Of a DNA stretch of 23,758 nucleotides, positions 2,820 to 21,692 are shown one piece after another. Below the pieces are notes generated by a model. The model ran no database searches and was not told the DNA's origin. It worked only from the letters and a program-made list of their open reading frames with translations. Each line of letters starts with the position of its first letter. Within the stretch, counting starts at the first letter, position 1. A program made the position numbers and the translations under genes. Origin of the DNA: a virus; the IMG/VR virus record IMGVR_UViG_3300028025_001228, positions 1 to 23,758 of that record; one strand, given 5' to 3'.

Positions 2820-5118
2820 ATTTAACTAAGCGAACCAAAGACGCGATTTTAGACTCAGGCATTGACTGCACCATGTCGCGCAGTTCTGACTTGCCACGGT
2901 TGACCATGTCAGGCGCGGCGTAGATGTGCTTTTTAGTCGTATGCGCCCGCGACTTGAGCAAGCCCATATCAACCCAGCCCGCCTCACGAAACGCGTGCAG
3001 CAAGGCCGCCACGGGCAGTTTCATACCCGTAGGGGCTTGACCAGTCAGGCGGTCACAAACTGACTGCCAAGGGCCACCGAGCACGCCGGAGGCAAACTCA
3101 CCGATACGCGAGCGCATCATCTCGACAAGGAACGACTCAGCACCACTCATGCCCGTCTCGACCATGATGGCCTTGGCCTCAGTCATTGGAGGCGCAGCAC
3201 CGGCGTTAAATGCGGAGACGTCACGGGCGGCAAGCCACGCCGCCGCCGCCGCAAACCCGCCGGACTTGTACCACGCCCACATGCGGGCGGCGACCTCAGA
3301 GTCCATGCAAAAGGCGTTAGACCACAAAACGAACCACCGGCGGTCATTCGAGGGAATAGTGATCGCCATGCGCTCATTCGAAAACGCAACCACTTGCAAA
3401 CGGTTGACGGCTTCATAAGGTGCTAGACCCTTGCGCTGAATAGACAAGAACTCAGGGGGCGCGGCGATCACGGGCTTCAAACTGTTCTCAAGCGCGCGGC
3501 GATCTGACGCCTCGGGCTGGCGCAGCTCGTTAATAATGAGCACCTCACACTCAAGGTGATAACCCCAAGGGGTTGACAAGTCTTTATTGTCCAGCTTCTT
3601 GACGTTGGCAAGCGAGTCACCGCCCATTGCCCAAAAGAACGGTGCCCACATGGTGTCCTTGCCTGAGCCTGGGTGACCGCCATGCAGCACCGCGTGATTG
3701 ATTTTCTTATTTGGATGCTGAATTTTAAACGCCATCACGTTCAGGACGTGCTCACGCTCAATGTCGTCAGGAATCATGCGCTCAACGTGGTCAAGCCACG
3801 GCGTAGGGTCAACACCCTTAGCCACGGGCGGGCGGGCATCGCGCCAGCGATTGCCGTAAACCAAACCCTCACGGGCGCAAAGGATGGTCTCACCGGGGGC
3901 GTAAGTCACGCCCACAAGGGTTTTTGCACCTTTGCCTTGACGATTCTCATCAAAGCAAACAGACGCTTCAATCTTGCGTTTGACGTTGTTGATTGACCGG
4001 CAGTTAAGGTGACGAAACAATGCGTTAAAAGTACCACGCCCAATTTCACGGCGGTCTTGCATGTCAAAGTAAGAGTCATCGTCTTGGATGTATGCAAAAC
4101 GTTCCCACCAACCATCTTTTTCAATACGCCCAAGTTCCTTACGCTCGACTTCAGCGATGATCGCCGCCGCTGCGTCAGGGTAAGCCTCATTAGGCGTCAG
4201 TTTGGAAAGTGCCATATCCATCGCCGAGGCCAACAGTTCCTCACGCAAGCCGGGCGCATGCTTAGGGCCGCCGTTGTCTGACACCCACTGCAAAAACAGC
4301 GACGAGCCAAAGTCAACGCAGTGGCTGTGCAGGCAGCAGTACGCACGATTAGCGGGCATGTAACGGCCTTCTGGGTTGCCGTCGGTATGCTCGGCTGAGT
4401 TGGGGCACATCACGCCCGCCCAGCCCTCTTGATTGGGTTTAGACAGTAGCAGACCCTGACCAGACAGCCACGCCATCACATCGTCAGCACCATCATCTGA
4501 CAAGCGGATGGGACGCACGCCCACTGAGTCAGCAGGCGCGGGCACCACGTCCAAGGCAGCGCAAATCTGCTCAAGCGTAAAGTCACGCGATGGGTGAAAC
4601 TCCACCAACTTAGCGGCGAAGTTGTTGCGGTCAGGCTTCAAGTTGATCGAGCCGGGTATGCGAAAGTTGCGCACGGCGTTGATCGCACCCTTGTCGGTGT
4701 AGCCGGCGTCGGCTATCGCTTTAATGGCCGCGCTGAAGTCGGCCTTTGTGGGCTGTTCTGAGAAAGCATAGCCCCACTGATATGACCCTTCAGACGTTTC
4801 GATCTTCCACGTCGGCTCAAGTGGCGGGATGGCCGCCTTGGTGCCCACATCGTCCAGCACCATCACCAGCACATACTCACAGTTAACCGCTGACGCTGAG
4901 ACGTGGCCGTCTTTAAAACGGTCGATGATAAAGCTGGCCGTGTTGCCATAAATTGCCCAGTCGGGTTTGATCTTGGTCGTTGGCAACATAGCCGGCCATG
5001 TGCATTTGATCGCGCCATCTGCATGGAATTGCAGTTCTTTGCCGATGGGCTTCTGGCGCACGATCAGCGCAGTCTCACCCTCGGGTGCCAAGGAAATTAA
5101 AAAATCAAGAAAGTTCAT
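2818..5118 (-). CDS. Primase-helicase: AEP-type primase domain fused to SF3 helicase
   Basis: A 766-residue replication protein. The N-terminal 190 residues resemble RepB-like archaeo-eukaryotic primases: VLDDVGTK at 87-94 with the expected acidic pair, WKIETSEG at 104-111, and a NFRIPGSINLK stretch near 151. A Cys/His cluster at 238-267 (MCPN..H, then CCLHSHC) may bind zinc. The C-terminal half is an SF3-type helicase of the DUF5906 kind: Walker A GGHPGSGKDT (480-489), acidic VLIINE (526-531), sensor AFSNE (578-582) and Arg finger region NDRRW (591-595). It should prime and unwind DNA at the fork. It overlaps the polymerase stop by ATGA, so the two are translationally coupled. Confidence 0.9.
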   Translation of the reverse strand: MNFLDFLISLAPEGETALIVRQKPIGKELQFHADGAIKCTWPAMLPTTKIKPDWAIYGNTASFIIDRFKDGHVSASAVNCEYVLVMVLDDVGTKAAIPPLEPTWKIETSEGSYQWGYAFSEQPTKADFSAAIKAIADAGYTDKGAINAVRNFRIPGSINLKPDRNNFAAKLVEFHPSRDFTLEQICAALDVVPAPADSVGVRPIRLSDDGADDVMAWLSGQGLLLSKPNQEGWAGVMCPNSAEHTDGNPEGRYMPANRAYCCLHSHCVDFGSSLFLQWVSDNGGPKHAPGLREELLASAMDMALSKLTPNEAYPDAAAAIIAEVERKELGRIEKDGWWERFAYIQDDDSYFDMQDRREIGRGTFNALFRHLNCRSINNVKRKIEASVCFDENRQGKGAKTLVGVTYAPGETILCAREGLVYGNRWRDARPPVAKGVDPTPWLDHVERMIPDDIEREHVLNVMAFKIQHPNKKINHAVLHGGHPGSGKDTMWAPFFWAMGGDSLANVKKLDNKDLSTPWGYHLECEVLIINELRQPEASDRRALENSLKPVIAAPPEFLSIQRKGLAPYEAVNRLQVVAFSNERMAITIPSNDRRWFVLWSNAFCMDSEVAARMWAWYKSGGFAAAAAWLAARDVSAFNAGAAPPMTEAKAIMVETGMSGAESFLVEMMRSRIGEFASGVLGGPWQSVCDRLTGQAPTGMKLPVAALLHAFREAGWVDMGLLKSRAHTTKKHIYAAPDMVNRGKSELRDMVQSMPESKIASLVRLVK

Positions 5119-7007
5119 TTGCCATACCTTTTCATAGTTTCAACTTCAGCGTTTAAAGGCAGGCCACCTGCCCACTCTGGCGCTGTACACATCACACGTT
5201 TTAAATTTTCGGCAGCTTCTGGGTCTGCCGTTTCAAGCACAATCTCGTCATGCACATGTAGCACGACGTCATCAAGTTGGCGCAAGGCGTGGCGAAGCAA
5301 GTCGTTGGCCACCGCCTGCGTTACATTTTCACATGCCAAGCCTTTCCACAGACGGGCGCGTGGCCATTCTTTTGCATCTTGCGCTGGCTTCCATGCCGCT
5401 TTGGCATAACTGACGCCCTCTGATTCCAATTTGGCATAGGGGTAGCACAAAATCCGGCCAGAGGGTAGGGCATACCATAGGTGCTGGCCATCATATAAAT
5501 ATGTTATACGGCCAGCCTTAAATTCACGCCCCTTGTTTCTCATTGCTCGGGTGTACGATTCCTCAAGCGCCGACCAATAAGGCACGCTCCAAGAATTAGC
5601 ACGCCGCCAGCCATCCACCATGCGTTTGGCAACTGGCTCAGGAAGACTGATCCCATAAGCCCGACCCATAGCAGCAAAAGCCCCCACGCCCCCAGCAAAT
5701 CCACAGGCAAGTTCTTGAACCTTTCCAATCTGGCGCTGGTCTTTGGTGACGGCGTCCACTCGGACGCTGAACGTGGCTGCGGCATTGACTTTATATACGT
5801 CTTCCCCAGTGCGGAATAGTTCCAGCTTGTCTTGACCTCGGCCTGAAAGCCAAGGGTTGACTCGGGCTTCGATGGCTGCCCAGTCTGCGACGACAAGGTG
5901 TTTGCCTTTAGCGGGGATGATGGCAGGTCTGAGCATTCCTTTGAGAACATCGGTAACGCGCTTTCCATACCGAGGCACGATAGCGTGCCCTCTGACCATA
6001 GCGTGCCTGACATCGTCGGGCTGTTCTGCGCACTTGCGAGTGAAGTTGTGGACTTGGGCGCCGTAGGACGATGCTCGTCCTGTTGCTGAACCGCCTGCAA
6101 ATACAAACGCTCCTCGGACTCGCTCATCTTCAATATCTGCCAAAGCTGCAAGTCGGCTGAATTTTGCAACTGACGATGCCCAAAGGTCGTCTGCGCATTG
6201 AATGACTTCTTGGACATCGGGTGGTACTCCATCACAGTTTAAAAGGTTGGCTCTCACAGTCTTGTCAATGCTGACCTTGTCGTCTTTTTGCATCAGCTTG
6301 CGCGCTTCTTCATCGACACGATCCCAAACCCACTCACGCATGCGGGGGCTGCGAACGCTGGTGATCGCGCCGTTGGTCACTTCCTTGACAATTTCCTCGA
6401 TCTCAATCAACTCGTCTGACGCGTACTTGACTGCGGCTTGGCAAAGCGGCACGTCCACCAACACGCCGCGATCATTGATGCGCTCGTTGACGTGATAGTC
6501 CAGCAGTTCCTCATCTGTCAGATCACGCATGGCTTTGCTAATTGCACGCATAGCCCTAACGTCCTGCTCACAATATTGGATCATCTCGGCCATCAGTTCT
6601 GGCGAGTCTTTAAATGGTGGCACGCACATCAAGCGGATCAGTTGCGCGCCTCTGTGATCTTTTTTCATAGACGCGCCAGCAAAACGGCCAACGTCCTCCA
6701 GACTGCCAGGCGCACAGTTGGCGCGGGCTTGTGTTGCAGTGCAGTAAAACTGCTCAAGTTTGTAGTTGACCTGCAACACATACCAAAAAATCAGGCGCTC
6801 AAACGCCGCGTTGTGTGCCCTGATCTGGCCGGTGTAGTTCAGCACACGCTCGGGGAAGGGCTGGGATGGAATCCACGTTACCACGTCCTCATCGTCAAAC
6901 GCATAGGACATGCACAGCACATCGGTGCTTGCATCCTGAGCATAGTTGTACACGCCCTTGGCGCGTAGGTCGCACGTACTGCGCGTTTCAAAATCTAACC
7001 AAAGCAT
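5115..7007 (-). CDS. Family A DNA polymerase with 3'-5' exonuclease domain
   Basis: A 630-residue phage replicative polymerase. The N-terminal DnaQ-like exonuclease is complete: Exo I DFET (5-8), Exo II HNAAFE (65-70), Exo III YCEQD (145-149). The polymerase part has TGR (309-311), motif A VVADWAAIEARV (372-383), motif B RQIGKVQELACGF (425-437) and motif C HVHDE (584-588). All catalytic acids are present. The length is typical of the short phage PolA type that accompanies DUF2800 nucleases. The start is fixed by AAGGAG seven bases upstream. A GC-rich hairpin lies between it and the upstream gene. Confidence 0.96.
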   Translation of the reverse strand: MLWLDFETRSTCDLRAKGVYNYAQDASTDVLCMSYAFDDEDVVTWIPSQPFPERVLNYTGQIRAHNAAFERLIFWYVLQVNYKLEQFYCTATQARANCAPGSLEDVGRFAGASMKKDHRGAQLIRLMCVPPFKDSPELMAEMIQYCEQDVRAMRAISKAMRDLTDEELLDYHVNERINDRGVLVDVPLCQAAVKYASDELIEIEEIVKEVTNGAITSVRSPRMREWVWDRVDEEARKLMQKDDKVSIDKTVRANLLNCDGVPPDVQEVIQCADDLWASSVAKFSRLAALADIEDERVRGAFVFAGGSATGRASSYGAQVHNFTRKCAEQPDDVRHAMVRGHAIVPRYGKRVTDVLKGMLRPAIIPAKGKHLVVADWAAIEARVNPWLSGRGQDKLELFRTGEDVYKVNAAATFSVRVDAVTKDQRQIGKVQELACGFAGGVGAFAAMGRAYGISLPEPVAKRMVDGWRRANSWSVPYWSALEESYTRAMRNKGREFKAGRITYLYDGQHLWYALPSGRILCYPYAKLESEGVSYAKAAWKPAQDAKEWPRARLWKGLACENVTQAVANDLLRHALRQLDDVVLHVHDEIVLETADPEAAENLKRVMCTAPEWAGGLPLNAEVETMKRYGK

Positions 7008-7023
7008 TGGCGTCTCCTTTCCA

Positions 7024-7044
7024 ATGGGCGCTCATAACGCCCAT
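7024..7044 (-). promoter_or_regulatory. Hairpin in the leader of the polymerase gene
   Basis: ATGGGCG (7024-7030) pairs with CGCCCAT (7038-7044) around a 7-base loop. It sits between the stop of the upstream gene (7053) and the polymerase ribosome-binding site and is not followed by a T run. It is therefore more likely an mRNA-processing, stabilising or translation-tuning element than a terminator. Confidence 0.5.
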
Positions 7045-7052
7045 CAGAAAGG

Positions 7053-7688
7053 TTACGCTGAACGGCGGCGGCGTGCAGGTGCTGCTGGTTCTTCAACAAC
7101 TTCAGCAACAGGCGCCTCACCATCCATGCTCACCCACTCGACAACTTCAAACACTGGCGTGTAAATCTTGCCGTAGGATTTGTGGGCGTAGTGGTCTTTC
7201 TTCAGGCGCACGACTGGCACTGGCTTGGTCTGGTCTTTCTCGACCTGCTCAGCCAAGGCCACGGCCAAGGTCTGAACCGCACGCTTACCGCCCACTGACG
7301 TGGTGGTAAAGCGCGCTTCCATGCCCTTGTCTTCGCCTGTCAGGCACTTGATGGACATACCGACCTGAGTCTCCCAGCCCTTCTTGGCTTGGGGCGGTGC
7401 CTCATCCAACTCAGGCAATGGGTTGCTAACGCTTGTCATCTTCTCACCCAGCACTTCGCCATCGCCCCAAGCAATGAAACCATGCACGAATGAGAAAGGG
7501 TTGACTGCCCAGATAGCGTCGTCTTCGACTTCGGTTTGATCTGCGCCAAAGACCCAGTGGCCAGTCTTATCCATCTTGATAATGACAACACCGGACGGGC
7601 CAACTTCGGCTTGAATCGAACGCAAAGCGCTGGACAAAGTAGAAACAGCGGGTAGATTAGCTTGAGAGAAGGTTACTAAATTTGACAT
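7053..7688 (-). CDS. Possible single-stranded-DNA-binding replication protein, 211 aa
   Basis: It lies between the DUF2800 nuclease and DNA polymerase genes, where related phages carry a DUF2815-type ssDNA-binding protein. The sequence has alternating beta-strand stretches (GVVIIKMDKTGHWVFGA; FEVVEWVSM) that would suit an OB-type fold. The tail is acidic then strongly basic (EVVEEPAAPARRRRSA), unlike the purely acidic tail of classic SSBs. TAAGGAAAATC before the ATG is a strong ribosome-binding site, eight bases after the upstream stop. The function comes from gene position, not from a recognised signature, and the protein could simply be a conserved hypothetical. Confidence 0.65.
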   Translation of the reverse strand: MSNLVTFSQANLPAVSTLSSALRSIQAEVGPSGVVIIKMDKTGHWVFGADQTEVEDDAIWAVNPFSFVHGFIAWGDGEVLGEKMTSVSNPLPELDEAPPQAKKGWETQVGMSIKCLTGEDKGMEARFTTTSVGGKRAVQTLAVALAEQVEKDQTKPVPVVRLKKDHYAHKSYGKIYTPVFEVVEWVSMDGEAPVAEVVEEPAAPARRRRSA

Positions 7689-11499: not shown

Positions 11500-11653
11500 C
11501 AGGCCAGACTTTCCGACCTGGAGCCAAGCCAACTTGGCCAAGTTTGCCGAGGAAGCCTACGCCAAGCTGTGTGAGCAAGACGACCGCATACAGCACCTGC
11601 AATGCGATCTGAAGACGGCCATAGAGGCGTACAGGGCGCTAACTAAGGAATAG
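11492..11653 (+). CDS. Helical protein, 53 aa, last gene of the rightward operon
   Basis: AAGGA five to eight bases before the ATG supports the start; a longer frame from 11390 runs through the previous gene. The protein reads MTNRPDFPTWSQANLAKFAE, then a long helix with EQDDRIQHLQCDLKTAIEAY, likely a coiled coil. The stop TAG (11651-11653) lies in the 3' arm of a terminator stem and 12 bases inside the convergent lysozyme gene. Function unknown. Confidence 0.76.
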   Translation: MTNRPDFPTWSQANLAKFAEEAYAKLCEQDDRIQHLQCDLKTAIEAYRALTKE

Positions 11654-11661
11654 CGCTTTTT
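11636..11661 (+). terminator. Intrinsic terminator containing both convergent stop codons
   Basis: GCGCTA (11636-11641) pairs with TAGCGC (11651-11656) around nine bases and is followed by five T (11657-11661). The rightward gene's TAG is in the 3' arm; the lysozyme's TAG (complement of 11639-11641) is in the 5' arm. It ends rightward transcription; read leftwards there is no T run. Confidence 0.7.
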
Positions 11662-12142
11662 CTGCGCTCCTGCGTTTAATCAAGCCTTTGACTTCTTTGC
11701 CGCCAGCTTTTGTCCAACTCATAAAAGCGTGGGCGGCATCTTCCCACTCACCACGGTTAACCTTCATGCGAATGGTTGACCGTTGGTAGTTGCCTAACCC
11801 TGCGTTGTAAGCAAAAGAGACAACAGCGTCGAATTTGCTTTGATGATTAGCAAGATTAGGAGAAAGTCGAAGAACACCGCGTTCAAAATTGTCGATGTCC
11901 ATCTTGAATAAGTTGACCAATTCTTCTTTCGACCATACACGGTTATCACCCTCCTTGAGTTGGTAATCAGACCTGATAAGACCTGCGTAGCCTTCTTTGC
12001 GCACGTTTGGCAGGCTTAGTTGGTCAGCGTACATAGCGTGGCCCCAACCGACCGTCCAGATGGCAGCGCTGCACCGATACGGGCGCGCCCTGTAGCCTTC
12101 AAAGAAGTGCATCAGGTGTTCGCCCTTTTCGCTGATTTTCAT
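11639..12142 (-). CDS. Endolysin, GH24 lysozyme (muramidase)
   Basis: 167 residues, the usual length of T4/P22-type lysozymes, cleaving peptidoglycan glycan strands at lysis. The active-site pattern is E15, then eight residues to C24, then five to T30 (FEGYRARPYRCSAAIWTVGWGH), the known E-8-D/C-5-T triad with Cys in the Asp position. SKFDAVVSFAYNAGLGNYQ and the WTKAGGKEVKGLIKRR stretch are family hallmarks. There is no signal peptide or SAR helix at the N-terminus, so a holin should release it. It follows the holin-like gene with a 4-base overlap and is the last late gene. Confidence 0.94.
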   Translation of the reverse strand: MKISEKGEHLMHFFEGYRARPYRCSAAIWTVGWGHAMYADQLSLPNVRKEGYAGLIRSDYQLKEGDNRVWSKEELVNLFKMDIDNFERGVLRLSPNLANHQSKFDAVVSFAYNAGLGNYQRSTIRMKVNRGEWEDAAHAFMSWTKAGGKEVKGLIKRRSAEKALFLS

Positions 12143-12642
12143 TTCTTAGACCACGAACGTGAGCCAAACCAAAAGCCGATGATGCCGCCAAGCATGGCCA
12201 TCTCATCAGTGCTAAAGATAATGTCGGACAAGCGGATCAAGTCTTCTATGCTCATTACCAAACTTGGCCGGCTGTAAACGTAGTAAGCAATCCAAGCGTT
12301 GATGGCGCATAACTCCAGCACAAAAATGTAAGTCACCATGGGGCGCACAGTGCCCACAAAGTTGACCACCCAACGGCTTGCTTCTTCCATGATCTTCTTG
12401 TCGTGGTCGTAAGCCGCCACAGTCATCTCAGCGTCGGTCTGCATGGCAATCTGGTCGGTGCGGATCTCTTCCATGCGCTCTTGGGCGGCAAAACCCTGTG
12501 CCATCATTTGTAACTGTAGCTCGACCTGAACACGCGCAAGCGCCAATTCATGCTTCTGGTCAGCCTTGTTCTGAAAAAAATCAAGTAGTTTGGGCAAGCC
12601 TGAAATTAGCAGACCGCCAAGTGTTGAGAATAGTGAAAGCAT
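12139..12642 (-). CDS. Probable holin (three-TM phage/GTA holin type)
   Basis: 167 residues with hydrophobic segments at about 1-22 (LFSTLGGLLISGLPKLL), 101-122 (MVTYIFVLELCAINAWIAYYV) and a short C-terminal one (LGGIIGFWFGSRSW). A long charged helix (KADQKHELALARVQVELQLQ) links the first two. The layout, the RP before the second segment and the C-terminal GFWFGSRS match the 3TM holin family of phages and gene transfer agents, as I recall it. It would form the inner-membrane lesion for lysozyme. It is placed directly before lysozyme, with a TAATG overlap to the gene upstream. Confidence 0.78.
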   Translation of the reverse strand: MLSLFSTLGGLLISGLPKLLDFFQNKADQKHELALARVQVELQLQMMAQGFAAQERMEEIRTDQIAMQTDAEMTVAAYDHDKKIMEEASRWVVNFVGTVRPMVTYIFVLELCAINAWIAYYVYSRPSLVMSIEDLIRLSDIIFSTDEMAMLGGIIGFWFGSRSWSKK

Positions 12643-16616: not shown

Positions 16617-17372
16617 TTAATAATCCCCTTCACCAAACGTACCGCTACCGCTACCACCAAAATTGACCGGAGCGCCATACATAGAGCCACGATTTTTTAG
16701 CGCTTGCTGCAACAATGAGTTTTGTGCTTGATTTTGACTGTAATTCATATACGTGCCCAAACCACCCGTAAAGGCATTAGCCATACCAACTTGACCAGCC
16801 GCTTGAGCCGCGCCGGCGCCAGTCATTAGATTGCCTGCACTGGTTGCATAGTTTTGACCAGCTTGGCCAACTAAGTTTGTTGATGTTTGGCCGATGCCTG
16901 CCAACCCTGCTTGACGGTTGTACAACTGGTTTTCGCTAGCCACGCCAGTGTTGTAGCCCGTTAAAGCGCGGTTGTATGCGTTGCCAAATTCTTGCGAACC
17001 CATTTCTTGACCAAAGCGCTGTGCGGCTTTTAAAGCGCCGCCAGAAATCAAACCACCACGGGCAGCGGCTTGACGATCAAGAGCCTTTTGACCTTCCGAC
17101 AAGCGAAAAGCGTAACCTGGGTCAGCAGTAAAATCGCCCGCACCAAACTTAAACGCGCCAGGCACATTGCCAGCGGTGCGTTGCATCTCGGCTAGCGCGT
17201 TATAACCAGCCGTGCGATACGGCGCTTGGTCTTCACGCGTTTGTCGAAATTGTTCTGCTTGAAGTTCAGCAGCTCGGTCAGCCGCGCTGGCTTGTGTTTT
17301 AGCCGCGCTTTTAGACGCGCTTGCGCCAAGTAAGGCGCTTCCACCAATTGCTAGGGCCATCATCCACGGCAT
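16617..17372 (-). CDS. DNA injection protein, gp7-like (251 aa)
   Basis: N-terminal hydrophobic helix (MMALAIGGSALLGASASKSA), then a charged helix (QASAADRAAELQAEQFRQTR) and a Tyr/Gly/Asn-rich repeat-like region (AYNRALTGYNTGVASENQLYNRQ is split by such turns). This layout is common in phage DNA-transfer proteins related to P22 gp7 (229 residues) in type and size. A clean AGGAG seven bases upstream fixes the ATG. It leads the injection-protein block, as gp7 does in P22. Confidence 0.78.
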   Translation of the reverse strand: MPWMMALAIGGSALLGASASKSAAKTQASAADRAAELQAEQFRQTREDQAPYRTAGYNALAEMQRTAGNVPGAFKFGAGDFTADPGYAFRLSEGQKALDRQAAARGGLISGGALKAAQRFGQEMGSQEFGNAYNRALTGYNTGVASENQLYNRQAGLAGIGQTSTNLVGQAGQNYATSAGNLMTGAGAAQAAGQVGMANAFTGGLGTYMNYSQNQAQNSLLQQALKNRGSMYGAPVNFGGSGSGTFGEGDY

Positions 17373-17373
17373 A

Positions 17374-17715
17374 TTAGTTCTCCTGTAGGCACTGGGCCAG
17401 TTCTTGTGCTTGCGCTACATTGCTTGGCACAATTAAAACTTCGTCAACTTTGTCCAAATCAGTGCATTCTGTTGCATGAATGCAGTACCACACAACGTCT
17501 GTGAGCGATTTTACGCCATGATGCTTGTCTGCTTCAATAGTCAAACAAGCTGGCGCGTGAATAATTTTGCGCTCGTCATCCACCATCAATTCAATTGAAC
17601 CACTGGCAAGAATCGACAAATGGCTGAACCTATGCTTATGCTGCACAAGCACATGGCCCGCAGGAATGCGCGTTTCTTTTGCGTAAACCCCTGCACTAAA
17701 GTGGTGGTTGATCAT
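17374..17715 (-). CDS. Cupin-fold protein in the virion operon, 113 aa
   Basis: One small cupin barrel. Motif 1 fits G-x5-H-x-H-x3-[H]-x6-G at G20, H26, H28, H32 and G39 (GHVLVQHKHRFSHLSILASG); the usual Glu is replaced by His. The second motif is EADKHHGV (61-68) with H65 or H66 as ligand, so a metal site is likely intact. Cupins range from enzymes to sugar-binding or structural proteins, so function is open. It lies between a small virion gene and the injection proteins, the slot of P22 gene 14, and overlaps its upstream neighbour. I recall similar cupins in other environmental phages at this place. Confidence 0.82.
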   Translation of the reverse strand: MINHHFSAGVYAKETRIPAGHVLVQHKHRFSHLSILASGSIELMVDDERKIIHAPACLTIEADKHHGVKSLTDVVWYCIHATECTDLDKVDEVLIVPSNVAQAQELAQCLQEN

Positions 17716-18050
17716 TAGGTCACCTCACGCCCAGAAACGCGGATATTGATCGCGCTACCTGTGCCTGCAATTGTACTGATAAAGTCGCCAACGGCAAGCA
17801 CTTGGCCAACCAGTTCAGGGAACGTGTAGACCTCAGACGCCTGCAAGGTCTTGGTCTTAGTGATCAAGTTGGTGTTGCCAGCCGAGCCTGCGGTTGTGAC
17901 CAAGTTCACGCTAATCGTGGCAGCAGAGCCGCTAATATTAGTTGCGGTGAACTTGTCAATGATGGCCGTAACGCCAGTTGCGGTGTACTGGGTTGTTTGC
18001 GAGTTTTCGGCAAACTTTGCGGGTACAAGGACTTTGACGGTGACTGTCAT
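17715..18050 (-). CDS. Small beta-rich virion protein, 111 aa
   Basis: A GGAGG ribosome-binding site lies before the ATG, which overlaps the upstream stop. The sequence alternates short polar strands rich in Thr, Val and Ala (TVTVKVLVPAKFAENSQTTQ; ATISVNLVTTAGSAGNTNLI) and ends in INIRVSGREVT, typical of a small beta-sandwich. No family recognised. It lies between the candidate needle and the cupin and is probably a structural or decoration component. Confidence 0.76.
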   Translation of the reverse strand: MTVTVKVLVPAKFAENSQTTQYTATGVTAIIDKFTATNISGSAATISVNLVTTAGSAGNTNLITKTKTLQASEVYTFPELVGQVLAVGDFISTIAGTGSAINIRVSGREVT

Positions 18051-18814
18051 TGGAAACCTCCGATATTATTTGCGACTGTAAGGATTATGGACGGAATGCC
18101 TGGGTGCGGTGCAGACGCAGGGAAAGCAGCAATTTCAACACTAAGGTCAGTAACCGAAAACATTAGTTCAACATAGTCATTGGCTTTTAAGTCAAAAAAG
18201 TAATTAAGCGAGGAAAAAATCTCAGCGTTGTTGCCTTGAATTGTTATTCTACTGGCACTGTCTGGTACATCTACACCGTTAAGCCTAAACCAAAAATCAA
18301 AAACCGCAGTGCCGCCACTGGTTTTATCCAACTGAAACGAAGTGTCAAAGTTGTAAATACCTTCGGTATCAACATAAACACGGGATGTTGGTGAGCCAAG
18401 ATAAACGCCTTGGCTTAAGTCGGTAGTGTTAAATGTGATTGCCGTTGCTGTATTGATGATGGTTGCAACTTGAGTGGTGGTGTCGTAAAAAGATCCGTAC
18501 CTTGCCAGCTTAAACTCCCTTGGCGGCGGGGTAAGTTGCAAACCTTGAATCTGCTTTTGCATCTCAGCTATTTGAGACACCAAGTCAGCCGATTGGTCTT
18601 GCAAAGCAGATGTTTGCGCTAACGCTTGCAACGCCTCGTCATACGACGCAACCAAAGACACAGCATTTGGGTTAACGTCGCTGCTGTCGCTTGCTGCGTT
18701 AAACAAAGACAAAAAGAACAAGTACCAGGCACGGTCAATTAAACCCGTGCGAGTGTCAATCAACGGCACTCGCGGCGGCGTGATTGGCGTTGGCGTAGCG
18801 TTAGGGCTAGGCAT
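18047..18814 (-). CDS. Candidate tail needle / short fibre with jelly-roll-like C-terminal knob
   Basis: 255 residues in three parts. Residues 1-40 hold an anchor-like motif (RTGLIDRAWYLFFLSLFN) seen at the start of other phage virion proteins. Residues 57-93 form a heptad-like helix (ALQALAQTSALQDQSADLVS ... QIAEMQKQIQ). Residues 105-250 look like a TNF/C1q-type jelly roll (VYVDTEGIYNFDTSFQLDK; FDFWFRLNGVDV; FDLKANDYVELMFSVTD; IPSIILTV). The gene directly follows the gp10-like factor, where P22 carries needle gene 26; Sf6 needles end in a TNF-like knob. It is therefore probably a short knobbed needle, possibly touching the cell surface. An alternative is a head or tail fibre. Confidence 0.65.
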   Translation of the reverse strand: MPSPNATPTPITPPRVPLIDTRTGLIDRAWYLFFLSLFNAASDSSDVNPNAVSLVASYDEALQALAQTSALQDQSADLVSQIAEMQKQIQGLQLTPPPREFKLARYGSFYDTTTQVATIINTATAITFNTTDLSQGVYLGSPTSRVYVDTEGIYNFDTSFQLDKTSGGTAVFDFWFRLNGVDVPDSASRITIQGNNAEIFSSLNYFFDLKANDYVELMFSVTDLSVEIAAFPASAPHPGIPSIILTVANNIGGFQ

Positions 18815-20447
18815 TTGTTGGACTCAAAATAAGTTCAGCACCCATGATGGCAATCTTTACAGGGTCAGTGCCTGACACTTCATAAACGCGGTCACGCAGT
18901 TTGACAGTCATACCCAAACGGCGCCAGATTACGCGCTTGTAATATTCGCCAATTTTGCCCATAGACTTCCAATGCTCGTTTGACCATGTGTGGCCACCAT
19001 CATCTGAGAAGCGAAGCATGACTTGAGGGTCATAGCCCGGCGTGGCATTGTAGGCATTGGTAACAATTTCATAGCCTGTAATGTCAGTATCTGATAAATC
19101 AAATTGACCCAAAGGCTCAAAACCGTCCCCAGCTTCAGTGGTCAAGGTATCGCCCGATTGCGTAGCCAAGTACGTTTGCACATATTCTGCGACAAGATTT
19201 AACCCAGACTCAGTATCTATGTTTTCACTGTCATAACCAGGGAAAGCATTTAACCCCACACCAGACTCGCAATCAAGTTGCAGGGTGTGCTGAGTTGTGC
19301 GTTTAAGAGTGTTAGTGCCAGTAGGCAATGCACGCCATGATCGTAGCCATCTTTGGATGCTGCCGTTGTCCGAATAGTCATCTAGGTCAAAGGCGTAGAT
19401 GTTGCCGTTCTCAAAGTCGCCAATGACAATCTGGTTGTTAAACGCCATCTGGCAGTTGCCACGGTGACGGGTAAAATTTCCATTGACAAAGCCTGCACGC
19501 TCGTGCCAGGCTTGCGTTGCCGCATCGTAAACCCAAGTTGTATTGGCACTAGGAAAAACCAAAACATAAAAGTTGTGGCCGTCTTGTTGGTATGTGTAAC
19601 CAATAGCGTCCGACAAGTCAGCGTACTGTTGGATCTGCCACTCAACAGCGTGGGTAGAAATCCGAACGCCAGCATATCCATTGGCGCGGTAGACAATACC
19701 TTGGCCACGGCGGTCACGGCCAAGCCAGAACAGGCCGTTGTCCATCTTGGCCACAGAGTAAGGGGCTGCGCAACCAAGTTCGTTAAACGCGCCTTGGATG
19801 CGCTGTAATGGAAAGTCTGTGGCGCCAGAGTCAAACCAGACTTCAATTGAGTTAGTACCAAACGCCCAGACTTCGCGGAAGTTAGACTCTACGGCAATTA
19901 AGCCGTCGGGTGAACCTTCTGTGCTAGCAAATTCCAAAGGATCAATAGACGTGCCGTCAAGCAACGATGTAACCCACAGCTTCTGGCTGTTTGGCTCGTT
20001 GAATACAAAGTAGCCGTCCAGATAGCACACGGTTACAGCGCCAGGGAAATCTGGGTCAGTGATCTGGCCAAAGCCGCCAGTGGTGTTGTTGTAGATGTAA
20101 CTAGGGCCATTGGCCGCAATAAACAATTGCGTACCGTTATCAGCCATGCTAACTGGCCCAATGCCCGCCACCGTGCCAATTAGCGTAGCGGTATATGTAT
20201 TGTTTATCTTGTAAAGCGCATTGCCTGACACAACAAAACTAAAACCATCATTTGCAGAAAAAGCCCACAGACCACGGATCGGGCCAGTGCCAATAGTGTT
20301 AAGCAACCGCAAGCCTGGGGCGCGGTTTAGAAACGCAGGCTCTTTACCGGCCTCGGGAACAATCTCGGGAAACAGGTTGACCATCCGAGCGTCTGCTGCA
20401 TTGACGCTTCGGGTGACATAAGTTGAGCCAAGAATCGGCGTTTTCAT
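18807..20447 (-). CDS. P22 gp10-like tail accessory factor (packaged DNA stabilisation)
   Basis: 546 residues (P22 gp10 has 472). The opening MKTPILGSTYVTRSVNAADA then MVNLFPEIVPE and NRAPGLRLL is characteristic of the family, as are FREVWAFGTNSIEVWFDSGA and LFWLGRDRRGQG. It is predicted to be beta-rich. In P22 this protein sits below the portal and gp4 ring and helps close the capsid after packaging, then holds the needle. The gene shares one base with the upstream stop (TAATG) and also opens with ATGAAAAC. Confidence 0.92.
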   Translation of the reverse strand: MKTPILGSTYVTRSVNAADARMVNLFPEIVPEAGKEPAFLNRAPGLRLLNTIGTGPIRGLWAFSANDGFSFVVSGNALYKINNTYTATLIGTVAGIGPVSMADNGTQLFIAANGPSYIYNNTTGGFGQITDPDFPGAVTVCYLDGYFVFNEPNSQKLWVTSLLDGTSIDPLEFASTEGSPDGLIAVESNFREVWAFGTNSIEVWFDSGATDFPLQRIQGAFNELGCAAPYSVAKMDNGLFWLGRDRRGQGIVYRANGYAGVRISTHAVEWQIQQYADLSDAIGYTYQQDGHNFYVLVFPSANTTWVYDAATQAWHERAGFVNGNFTRHRGNCQMAFNNQIVIGDFENGNIYAFDLDDYSDNGSIQRWLRSWRALPTGTNTLKRTTQHTLQLDCESGVGLNAFPGYDSENIDTESGLNLVAEYVQTYLATQSGDTLTTEAGDGFEPLGQFDLSDTDITGYEIVTNAYNATPGYDPQVMLRFSDDGGHTWSNEHWKSMGKIGEYYKRVIWRRLGMTVKLRDRVYEVSGTDPVKIAIMGAELILSPTNA

Positions 20448-20977
20448 TACGCAACTACGCCATCAATCACAGCAAAGTTAATTACTGGTGCATCGGTAGC
20501 TGTGCCACCAGTGGTCAAGAAAGTAATGTTAAAACTTCCAGCAGTTATCGCAGTAACCGACAGAACGTATAAATTAGTGCCTGATGCTTGATTCAAAATA
20601 ATTACATCATTTGCGCCAACGGTGCTATTGGTAACAGTAAACGTAGCCGCAGTAGCAGAACCAGCCGCAGAGAACATCGTAATAGCACCGCAACGCTTGT
20701 TAAGCGTTACGCCGGTAGTACGGCTAGTTAGTTGTGTAACTGCGCCGCCTGCGCCTGTCGCATAGCCTACGCCAGCCGTGCCAGTTGACACAATAGCGCC
20801 CGTGGCTGTTAGGCTTGTGCCGGTGGCTACGCCAATATTAGGCGTAACCATTGTTGCATTGGTAAACAACAGCGCGTTGGTGACTTGTTTAGTTGTGCCT
20901 GATTGCACAATTGGCAAGACATCAGTAACAGCAGCCGCAGTGGCGACGGGAAGCGAAGTGATTGCAATGGTGGCCAT
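20447..20977 (-). CDS. Beta-rich structural protein, 176 aa
   Basis: Start placed at 20977, where AGGAAA precedes the ATG; a longer in-frame start at 21022 overlaps the gp4-like gene and has no ribosome-binding site. The opening ATIAITSLPVATAAAVTDVL and PIVQSGTTKQVTNALL is a pattern often seen at the start of phage fibre and decoration proteins. The rest is Thr/Ala/Gly-rich beta (GAITMFSAAGSATAATFTVT). It lies between the gp4-like and gp10-like genes, so it is probably a connector, fibre base or head protein. Confidence 0.78.
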   Translation of the reverse strand: MATIAITSLPVATAAAVTDVLPIVQSGTTKQVTNALLFTNATMVTPNIGVATGTSLTATGAIVSTGTAGVGYATGAGGAVTQLTSRTTGVTLNKRCGAITMFSAAGSATAATFTVTNSTVGANDVIILNQASGTNLYVLSVTAITAGSFNITFLTTGGTATDAPVINFAVIDGVVA

Positions 20978-20978
20978 G

Positions 20979-21692
20979 TTAGTAGTTTCCTGCGTAAATG
21001 TTAAATCGTTGACGGTTAGCAACTAATGCGTAAGGCAACGCCATCACATCATCTGGGTTGTTGATGCGTTTGAGGTCACGCTTAGAAGTCATCGCAATGC
21101 GCTGCACTTGGGGGCTTGGCTCAACACCAAACTCAGGGGCAAACTCCATAGCCAGATTGTATGTAAACGCCCGCAAATAACCAGGTGGGTAGTACAAAAC
21201 CGTAGACAAGTTGACGGGGTTGTTCAGTTCTTGAACCGAAACAAAGTGCCATTCCAAATCCTGCGTAGGACGTGGATAAACGTACATCTCAATATTAGGA
21301 AACGTCATGTTAGTGAACATGACTTGTGGGAAAGTGGAAGTTACGGTCTTAACAGCAATACCGTTGTACTGCTGTTGATTGATAAACTTGATGCCATACG
21401 ACACGCCGCTTGGCGCTTTGAAGTAAGTAGAGTCGTCAAGCAAGACAGGGCGGTTGCCCACAAAGTCACCAGTAGGGCCAAGGGTTCGGCTCAAAATACT
21501 GGCTGGCCATGTAAAGACTTGATCTTGTGTGCAAAACACAGACAGACGTTCTGTGTTCCAACTGTCAATCATTTGATTGAGCGCCATTAAAGCGTCTTGT
21601 GACGTAGCCGCAGAGGGCGTTTCACCTTCAGCAAGCACGCCAAGAAGCCGAAGCGCCCGGTTGATTTGTTCGCCAGCGGTGTACGTTGTCAT
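20979..21692 (-). CDS. P22 gp4-like head-tail accessory factor
   Basis: 237 residues. TTYTAGEQINRALRLLGVLA with MALNQMIDSWNTERLSVF matches the helical N-terminus of the P22 gp4 tail-accessory family, and VLYYPPGYLRAFTYNLAMEF with the region VQRIAMTSKRDLKRIN is also characteristic. Such proteins form a ring under the portal and start closure of the packaged head. AGAGG precedes the ATG. Longer than P22 gp4 (166), by a C-terminal extension. Confidence 0.9.
   Translation of the reverse strand: MTTYTAGEQINRALRLLGVLAEGETPSAATSQDALMALNQMIDSWNTERLSVFCTQDQVFTWPASILSRTLGPTGDFVGNRPVLLDDSTYFKAPSGVSYGIKFINQQQYNGIAVKTVTSTFPQVMFTNMTFPNIEMYVYPRPTQDLEWHFVSVQELNNPVNLSTVLYYPPGYLRAFTYNLAMEFAPEFGVEPSPQVQRIAMTSKRDLKRINNPDDVMALPYALVANRQRFNIYAGNY

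Follow-up and report, generated by a model that had tools for sequence, protein, structure and literature searches.

Tail genes of the window

The window, that is, the whole stretch of DNA that was analysed, is an IMG/VR virus record of 23,758 bases. Its order of coat, gp4, gp10, candidate needle and, further on, gp7 and other ejection-type genes is that of phage P22, in which gene 26 follows gene 10 (Table 1). A sequence-only reading of this DNA had placed the candidate directly after a gp10-like gene, as P22 gene 26 is, and the open reading frames and the phrog_578 and PF11134 matches agree with it: the candidate gene starts inside the end of the gp10-type gene, with an overlap of 8 nt. The gp10-type product matches phrog_578 ('head closure Hc3', E 2e-132) and PF11134 (Phage_stabilise, 35.4 bits at a cut-off of 25), and a gp10 profile iterated from the window recovers P22 gp10 (E 4.5e-47). 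Among solved structures it matches those of Pan3 (9vyg_M, E 2.3e-37), Pam1 (7eeq_1, E 8.4e-33) and P22 gp10 (8tvr_S, E 3.5e-9). Upstream of the gp4-type adaptor, which also has a P22_Tail-4 match below the cut-off, lies a P22-type coat gene truncated at the end of the window.

Table 1. Features of the candidate needle gene and its neighbours in the window
Feature	Coordinates	Strand	Evidence or remark
Candidate tail needle gene, 255 aa	18047..18814	-	ATG start, directly after the gp10-type gene
N-terminal anchor, residues 1-42, core motif PPRVPLIDTRTGLIDRAWYLFFLSL	18689..18814	-	Conserved; helix 28-42 in the model
Predicted helix / short coiled coil, residues 50-92, best heptads 66-93	18539..18667	-	AlphaFold2, heptad scan
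C1q/TNF-type jelly-roll knob, residues 96-255	18050..18529	-	Model, Foldseek, tblastn
gp10-type tail hub (head closure Hc3 / packaged-DNA stabilisation), presumed needle socket	18807..20447	-	phrog_578, PF11134
gp4-type tail adaptor	20979..21692	-	phrog_12985 E 1.6e-44; phrog_637 Ad3 E 4.8e-10
111-aa beta-rich protein	17715..18050	-	Usually adjoins the needle gene, also needles without C1q
gp7-type ejection protein	16617..17372	-	phrog_598 DNA ejection E 1.4e-40; P22 order after the needle slot

The 111-aa protein has no family match. It was considered as a partner specific to the C1q knob, and this was ruled out since it also adjoins needles with other tips; proteins of similar size (VvAW1 gp05 and PAE2_11) are located near the same slot. 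The next gene (17374-17715, minus strand) encodes a cupin-domain protein that occupies the position of P22 gene 14; it has further matches in phrog_24280 ('tail fiber adhesin') and in phrog_12032 ('short tail fiber protein'). Beyond the gp7-type gene the window contains two long genes. In the relative G001 the first of these matches phrog_2534, described as 'released from the phage upon host infection', and P22 gene 20 bears the same description.

Between gp4 and gp10 lies a gene for a 191-aa protein (20447-21022, minus strand) that matches phrog_18251, and the first part of which (SLPVATAAAVTDVLPIVQSGTTKQV) resembles positions 842-1252 of the G001 locus L088. In a second tail lineage, described below as B, its versions reach 434 aa with a conserved C-terminus, and it is possibly another fibre or decoration protein. 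An endolysin-type gene (11639-12142, minus strand; NCBIfam BgtA, 92 bits, below the cut-off) overlaps by 4 nt an upstream ORF of 167 aa (12139-12642), which may encode a membrane protein. Prophage relatives in named bacteria, sought as a pointer to the host, were not found.

Anchor, coil and knob of the candidate needle

The first 42 residues, with the core ITPPRVPLIDTRTGLIDRAWYLFFLSL, are kept in 159 IMG/VR loci retrieved with the anchor alone, and gp10 was found at 158 of them, at a distance of 80 nt or less in all 157 that could be measured. The anchor-like N-terminus proposed from the sequence is thus a conserved companion of gp10. This type of N-terminus (anchor A) is similar to the N-termini of the VvAW1, X14 and BA3 proteins (hhalign E 9.4e-7), with a score of 33.3 against a maximum of 18.6 for shuffles, and 0/200 column shuffles were as high. 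Direct homology of the anchor to P22 gp26 was rejected (hhalign E 0.79, 170/200 column shuffles as high), and the candidate gave no match to phrog_1219, the gp26 family.

The anchor is followed by a single helix predicted by AlphaFold2 from 30 sequences. About 37 residues of heptads had been claimed here, and a short coil is indeed predicted, with slightly fewer residues in about four clear heptads; even the best of these are only moderately above shuffles. The heptad periodicity compared with shuffles has p=0.007 for residues 77-95 and p=0.054 for residues 48-95, with a family median of 0.26. The coil is thus short and statistically weak, and, at about four to six heptads for the whole helix, it is much shorter than the long trimeric coil of P22 gp26 (11-16 heptads), as had been expected.

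The full-length AlphaFold2 model was poor (pLDDT 58.5); therefore, the knob was modelled separately from 55 more diverse sequences, including relatives down to 25% identity. The resulting monomer prediction is all beta, with pLDDT 92.7 and pTM 0.84, and Foldseek found 322 matches to it in the PDB with E of 0.001 or below. The leading ones are 4-1BBL (E 1.3e-7), Bacillus F-BclA (1.9e-7) and BxpB (4.3e-7), with EDA-A1 (TM 0.70 by query length), C1ql1, C1QL2 and the C1q domain of Caprin-2 just behind. Viral models matching the knob include several named C1q-domain proteins, and phage relatives found by tblastn are annotated as 'complement C1q-like protein 3 roll fold' and 'cerebellin-1 domain'. 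The C-terminal jelly roll suspected from the sequence is therefore well borne out by TNF-superfamily, BclA and C1q fold matches. The curated Pfam cut-offs were not reached, so the C1q/TNF assignment rests on the fold: the window protein scores 17.3 bits with BclA_C (PF18573; cut-off 38), Pfam C1q (PF00386) is not among its matches, and a relative in phage phiAC-1 scores 14.4 bits with C1q (cut-off 23.7). Sequence searches of the PDB for the identity of the knob returned matches to the FosB coil only (phmmer) or weak, chance-like matches to neuroplastin and others (A2 profile).

The earlier comparison with the Sf6 needle holds as far as a TNF-like jelly roll is concerned, but not for the Sf6 family itself, as PF16532 and phrog_1030 gave no match; the Sf6 knob is also absent from the best 50 fold matches of the knob model in the PDB. 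The dN/dS ratio of the knob is about 0.05-0.10, like that of gp10, so the knob is under purifying selection and looks less like a variable host-range domain. The idea of a fast-evolving receptor binder is not supported by these values, which come from a sample chosen by similarity to the query. Seven loci (L117, L193, L216, L218, L222, L245 and L246) match the knob in two pieces about 40 residues apart, as from an insert in the jelly roll; this pattern was seen in full in L117.

Exchange of tips on a conserved anchor

Complete ORFs with the anchor (139 in number) range from 147 to 972 aa, and only 30 of them carry the C1q knob. The other tips, classed by motif patterns of our own rather than by curated families, include a small beta domain (motif NNKSGS), fibre-like repeats (TDWxxFNxK), a cement-like domain and others. 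In gp31 of Rhodoferax phage P26218 (106 aa) the anchor is followed by a short beta-like domain without a coil; MW202557 (113 aa) has the anchor and coil without a knob, and DSL-LC05 has both with a different tip. X14 gp37 and BA3_0008, located in the same slot, begin with a region resembling the anchor (E about 1e-4 and 8e-4; none of the shuffles scored as high) and continue with long coil-like stretches.

Among the 80 loci with the C1q knob, two lineages can be told apart. Lineage A has the anchor of the window, while lineage B has a different N-terminus (LTRDQLAxFLTDQQQIRQFELLF), and homology between the two anchor types was not detected (79/200 shuffles as high). Compared with lineage B members such as L013, L021 and L026, the window is about 28% identical in gp10, 21% in the anchor and 30% in the coil, but about 86% in the knob, which also has about 77% nucleotide identity; the 111-aa neighbour is about 62% identical. 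Compared with members of its own lineage such as L010 or L022, the knob can be as low as 64-69% identical, with gp10 at 77-78%. The type of anchor follows the lineage of gp10 and the knob does not, and the boundary of the exchange is the junction of coil and knob. These loci were chosen by similarity to the query, so that the high conservation of the knob is partly a matter of ascertainment; the mosaic is not. Judged from these identities, the C1q knob has been transferred between lineages whose tails show hardly any other relationship. Leavitt et al. (PMC3741392) reported the same pattern of exchange for the knob of Sf6 among enteric phages of the P22 type. In aquatic P22-like phages the gene after gp10 might thus be a modular plug-and-tip slot, in which the anchor carries interchangeable tips, from the C1q knob, small beta knobs or long fibre repeats to almost nothing at all, and the ejection sensor is swapped independently of tail and spikes, a generalisation that we judge to be evenly balanced between right and wrong.

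Two records deserve separate mention. The 45-kb contig G003 has two similar, though differing, needle loci (L039 and L045) near both its ends and is possibly a chimeric assembly of two related phages. Limnohabitans phage DC33 (PQ492659.1, locus L084; 39 kb) is labelled Inoviridae, but positions 5571-7274 of the locus read as a tailed-phage portal-type protein beside a short C1q protein, so that the taxonomy line looks wrong.

Place of the protein in the tail

The product of the gene at 18047-18814 is probably the tail needle of an aquatic, short-tailed phage of the P22 type, with the C1q/TNF-type knob as the tip of the needle. This reading draws its main support from the freshwater Pseudanabaena phage Pan3, in which a needle solved as three chains is encoded immediately downstream of the gp10 homologue. 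It was deposited as 'Needle protein' and, according to the chain counts and names of the entries, is present in three chains, with all 197 residues in 9vzi_B and residues 1-69 in 9vyg_S; the latter entry also holds the Pan3 gp10 homologue (9vyg_M) in six chains. The Pan3 needle (Pan3_08) consists of the N-terminus RGVPIVDGQGRPNTQYQNLWQRT, a coil-like stretch and a non-coil C-terminal part of about 115 residues. It is like the window protein in its gene position and general layout. Its N-terminus has the motif VPIVD..G; the sequence of its knob is unrelated, and the direct similarity of the anchors is weak (E 0.017, 0/200 shuffles as high). In profile comparison the N-termini of VvAW1, X14 and BA3 match the Pan3-type N-terminus with E 1.1e-4, and a link of anchor A to the Pan3 needle through this intermediate profile is suggestive only. 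The Pan3 needle was not recovered by an HMMER search of the whole PDB with the anchor profile, and BLASTP of P0001 against Pan3_08 gave nothing significant.

The slot is not absolute: in phage Pam1 the relative of the Pan3-type needle lies two genes after gp10. This protein, Pam1_10 (L515:8272-9003), has the N-terminus of the Pan3 needle (57% over 35 aa), while Pam1_12 (L515:9421-10305) is annotated as 'needle protein' and is 51% identical to Pan3_10, an annotated 'ejection protein'; from these identities the annotation of the two Pam1 genes looks swapped.

P22 gp26 shares with the window gene the slot after gp10 and before the ejection genes, as well as the succession of anchor, coil and tip, but it has no detectable sequence homology, and its tip differs from the type of jelly-roll knob seen here. 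The needles of Sf6 and HS1 (phrog_1030, PF16532) do carry a TNF-type C-terminal knob, which spreads by exchange onto existing needles (PMC3741392). Taken together, the sequence comparisons do not support descent from the P22/Sf6 needle. In phage SU10, which belongs to a different group and is likened to the window gene by description, the needle gp18 has three chains, with a coil and a C-terminal domain in the channel of a beta-propeller nozzle (PMC9509320). C-terminal C1q domains are also found in proteins of marine pelagiphages and of glacier phages, where they are hypervariable, adjoin tail fibres and were proposed to contact the host (PMC3909814, PMC7468147); unlike these, the knob of the window shows conservation and is encoded next after gp10.

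As the main rival we consider a side tail fibre, with Anabaena phage A-4L as its precedent: the tail fibre of that phage (9k09_A) matches the fold of the knob over part of the chain (E 1.4e-6) and is present in 18 chains, presumably six trimers. On this model six trimers would be attached by their anchors to the outer face of the gp4/gp10 tail, the C1q knob would be the receptor-binding tip, and the real plug would be another protein. The length range of the same-slot proteins, some of which, up to 972 aa and with fibre repeats, are more fibre-like than plug-like, fits this model, as does the interpretation of marine and glacier phage C1q domains as receptor-binding proteins of variable islands (PMC3909814, PMC7468147). 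However, the A-4L fibre differs in its N-terminus and its gene is far from the A-4L tail tubular genes, the equivalent gene of Pan3 encodes a three-chain needle, and the knob is conserved rather than hypervariable. A separate gp26-like gene elsewhere in the genome would have told against the needle reading; no gene matching phrog_1219 or phrog_1030 was detected by sequence in any of the 23 relatives, which are not certified as complete, and no other needle gene was found in them in this way. We therefore regard the side fibre as unlikely, though worth keeping in mind.

The sequence-only reading had also seen no other spike and suggested that the needle might be a receptor-binding part. That inference is not supported, as the window ends in the coat gene: in relatives, tailspike-type genes are located between portal and scaffold, just past the window edge, and 20 of the 23 have one. 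G001 contains two of them (L088:2482-4113 and 4280-5932), and the N-terminal part of one (L088:5273-5932) has matches in 20/23 relatives; in G002, the gp10 of which is 87% identical to that of the window, the spike match is upstream of the coat gene. In G018, G002, W01 (DSL-LC05) and G023 the N-terminal domain of the spike is a separate ORF of 158-171 aa, and a second ORF of 416-620 aa encodes the later part. In other relatives the spike is a single gene of 550-866 aa, so that the split form reads as a spike and its adaptor. C1q-type domains bind many ligands and the tip modules are exchanged between phages, which could be expected of a needle acting as the main receptor-binding protein and setting the host range of a phage without a spike. 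The separate spikes, also in the close relative G002, and the purifying selection on the knob argue against it; moreover, the base of the P22 needle plugs the tail, and its tip affects the rate of ejection while P22-type needle knobs gave no host specificity (PMC3741392). Such a protein is accordingly improbable here, and the knob is unlikely to be the main determinant of host range; it may have a role in host-cell binding, and its task is probably to modulate ejection or to recognise some surface feature that is conserved. Least probable is a head-tail assembly protein or chaperone absent from the mature virion: the neighbouring 111-aa and cupin proteins have no certain virion role, but the Pan3 needle and a jelly-roll knob, typical of exposed tips, point the other way.

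For the preferred reading as a needle, the following mechanism may be proposed. Three copies would form a short needle, as in the three-chain needle of Pan3, and the N-terminal anchor would be held in the centre of the gp10 hexamer, as suggested by Pan3 and the gene order. The needle would help to close the DNA channel, as the P22 needle does (PMC3741392), and a short three-stranded coil, itself a prediction, would lead outward to the C1q/TNF-type knob, placed at the tip a short distance below the tail. Separate tailspikes would bind the cell surface first, after which the knob might make contact with the outer membrane or with a secondary receptor, acting as a trigger. The needle would then leave, and the DNA and ejection proteins would pass, as in P22 and SU10 (PMC9509320).

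C1q domains in phages are already known (PMC3909814, PMC7468147, PMC7824862), TNF-type knobs have been described on needles (Sf6, HS1), and Pan3 provides a solved short needle that has a C-terminal domain. In open-licence papers we came across no C1q-type knob described for a gp10-adjacent needle, no anchor slot with tips as diverse as these, and no case of two unrelated anchors bearing the same knob. New here are the anchor slot with its varied tips, in proteins of 147-972 aa, and a C1q knob shared across tail lineages. For the needle tip of short-tailed phages, P22 and Sf6 supply only two types; the C1q-type tip, on a short coil and under purifying selection, has been exchanged between tails with gp10 only 28% identical. 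If the slot is that of the needle, freshwater phages would hold hundreds of natural tip-swap experiments, and phages differing only in the tip could show whether it sets the timing of ejection, a secondary receptor or the host range. Cultured phages with the slot include Rhodoferax phage P26218, Shewanella phage X14 and Thalassomonas phage BA3.
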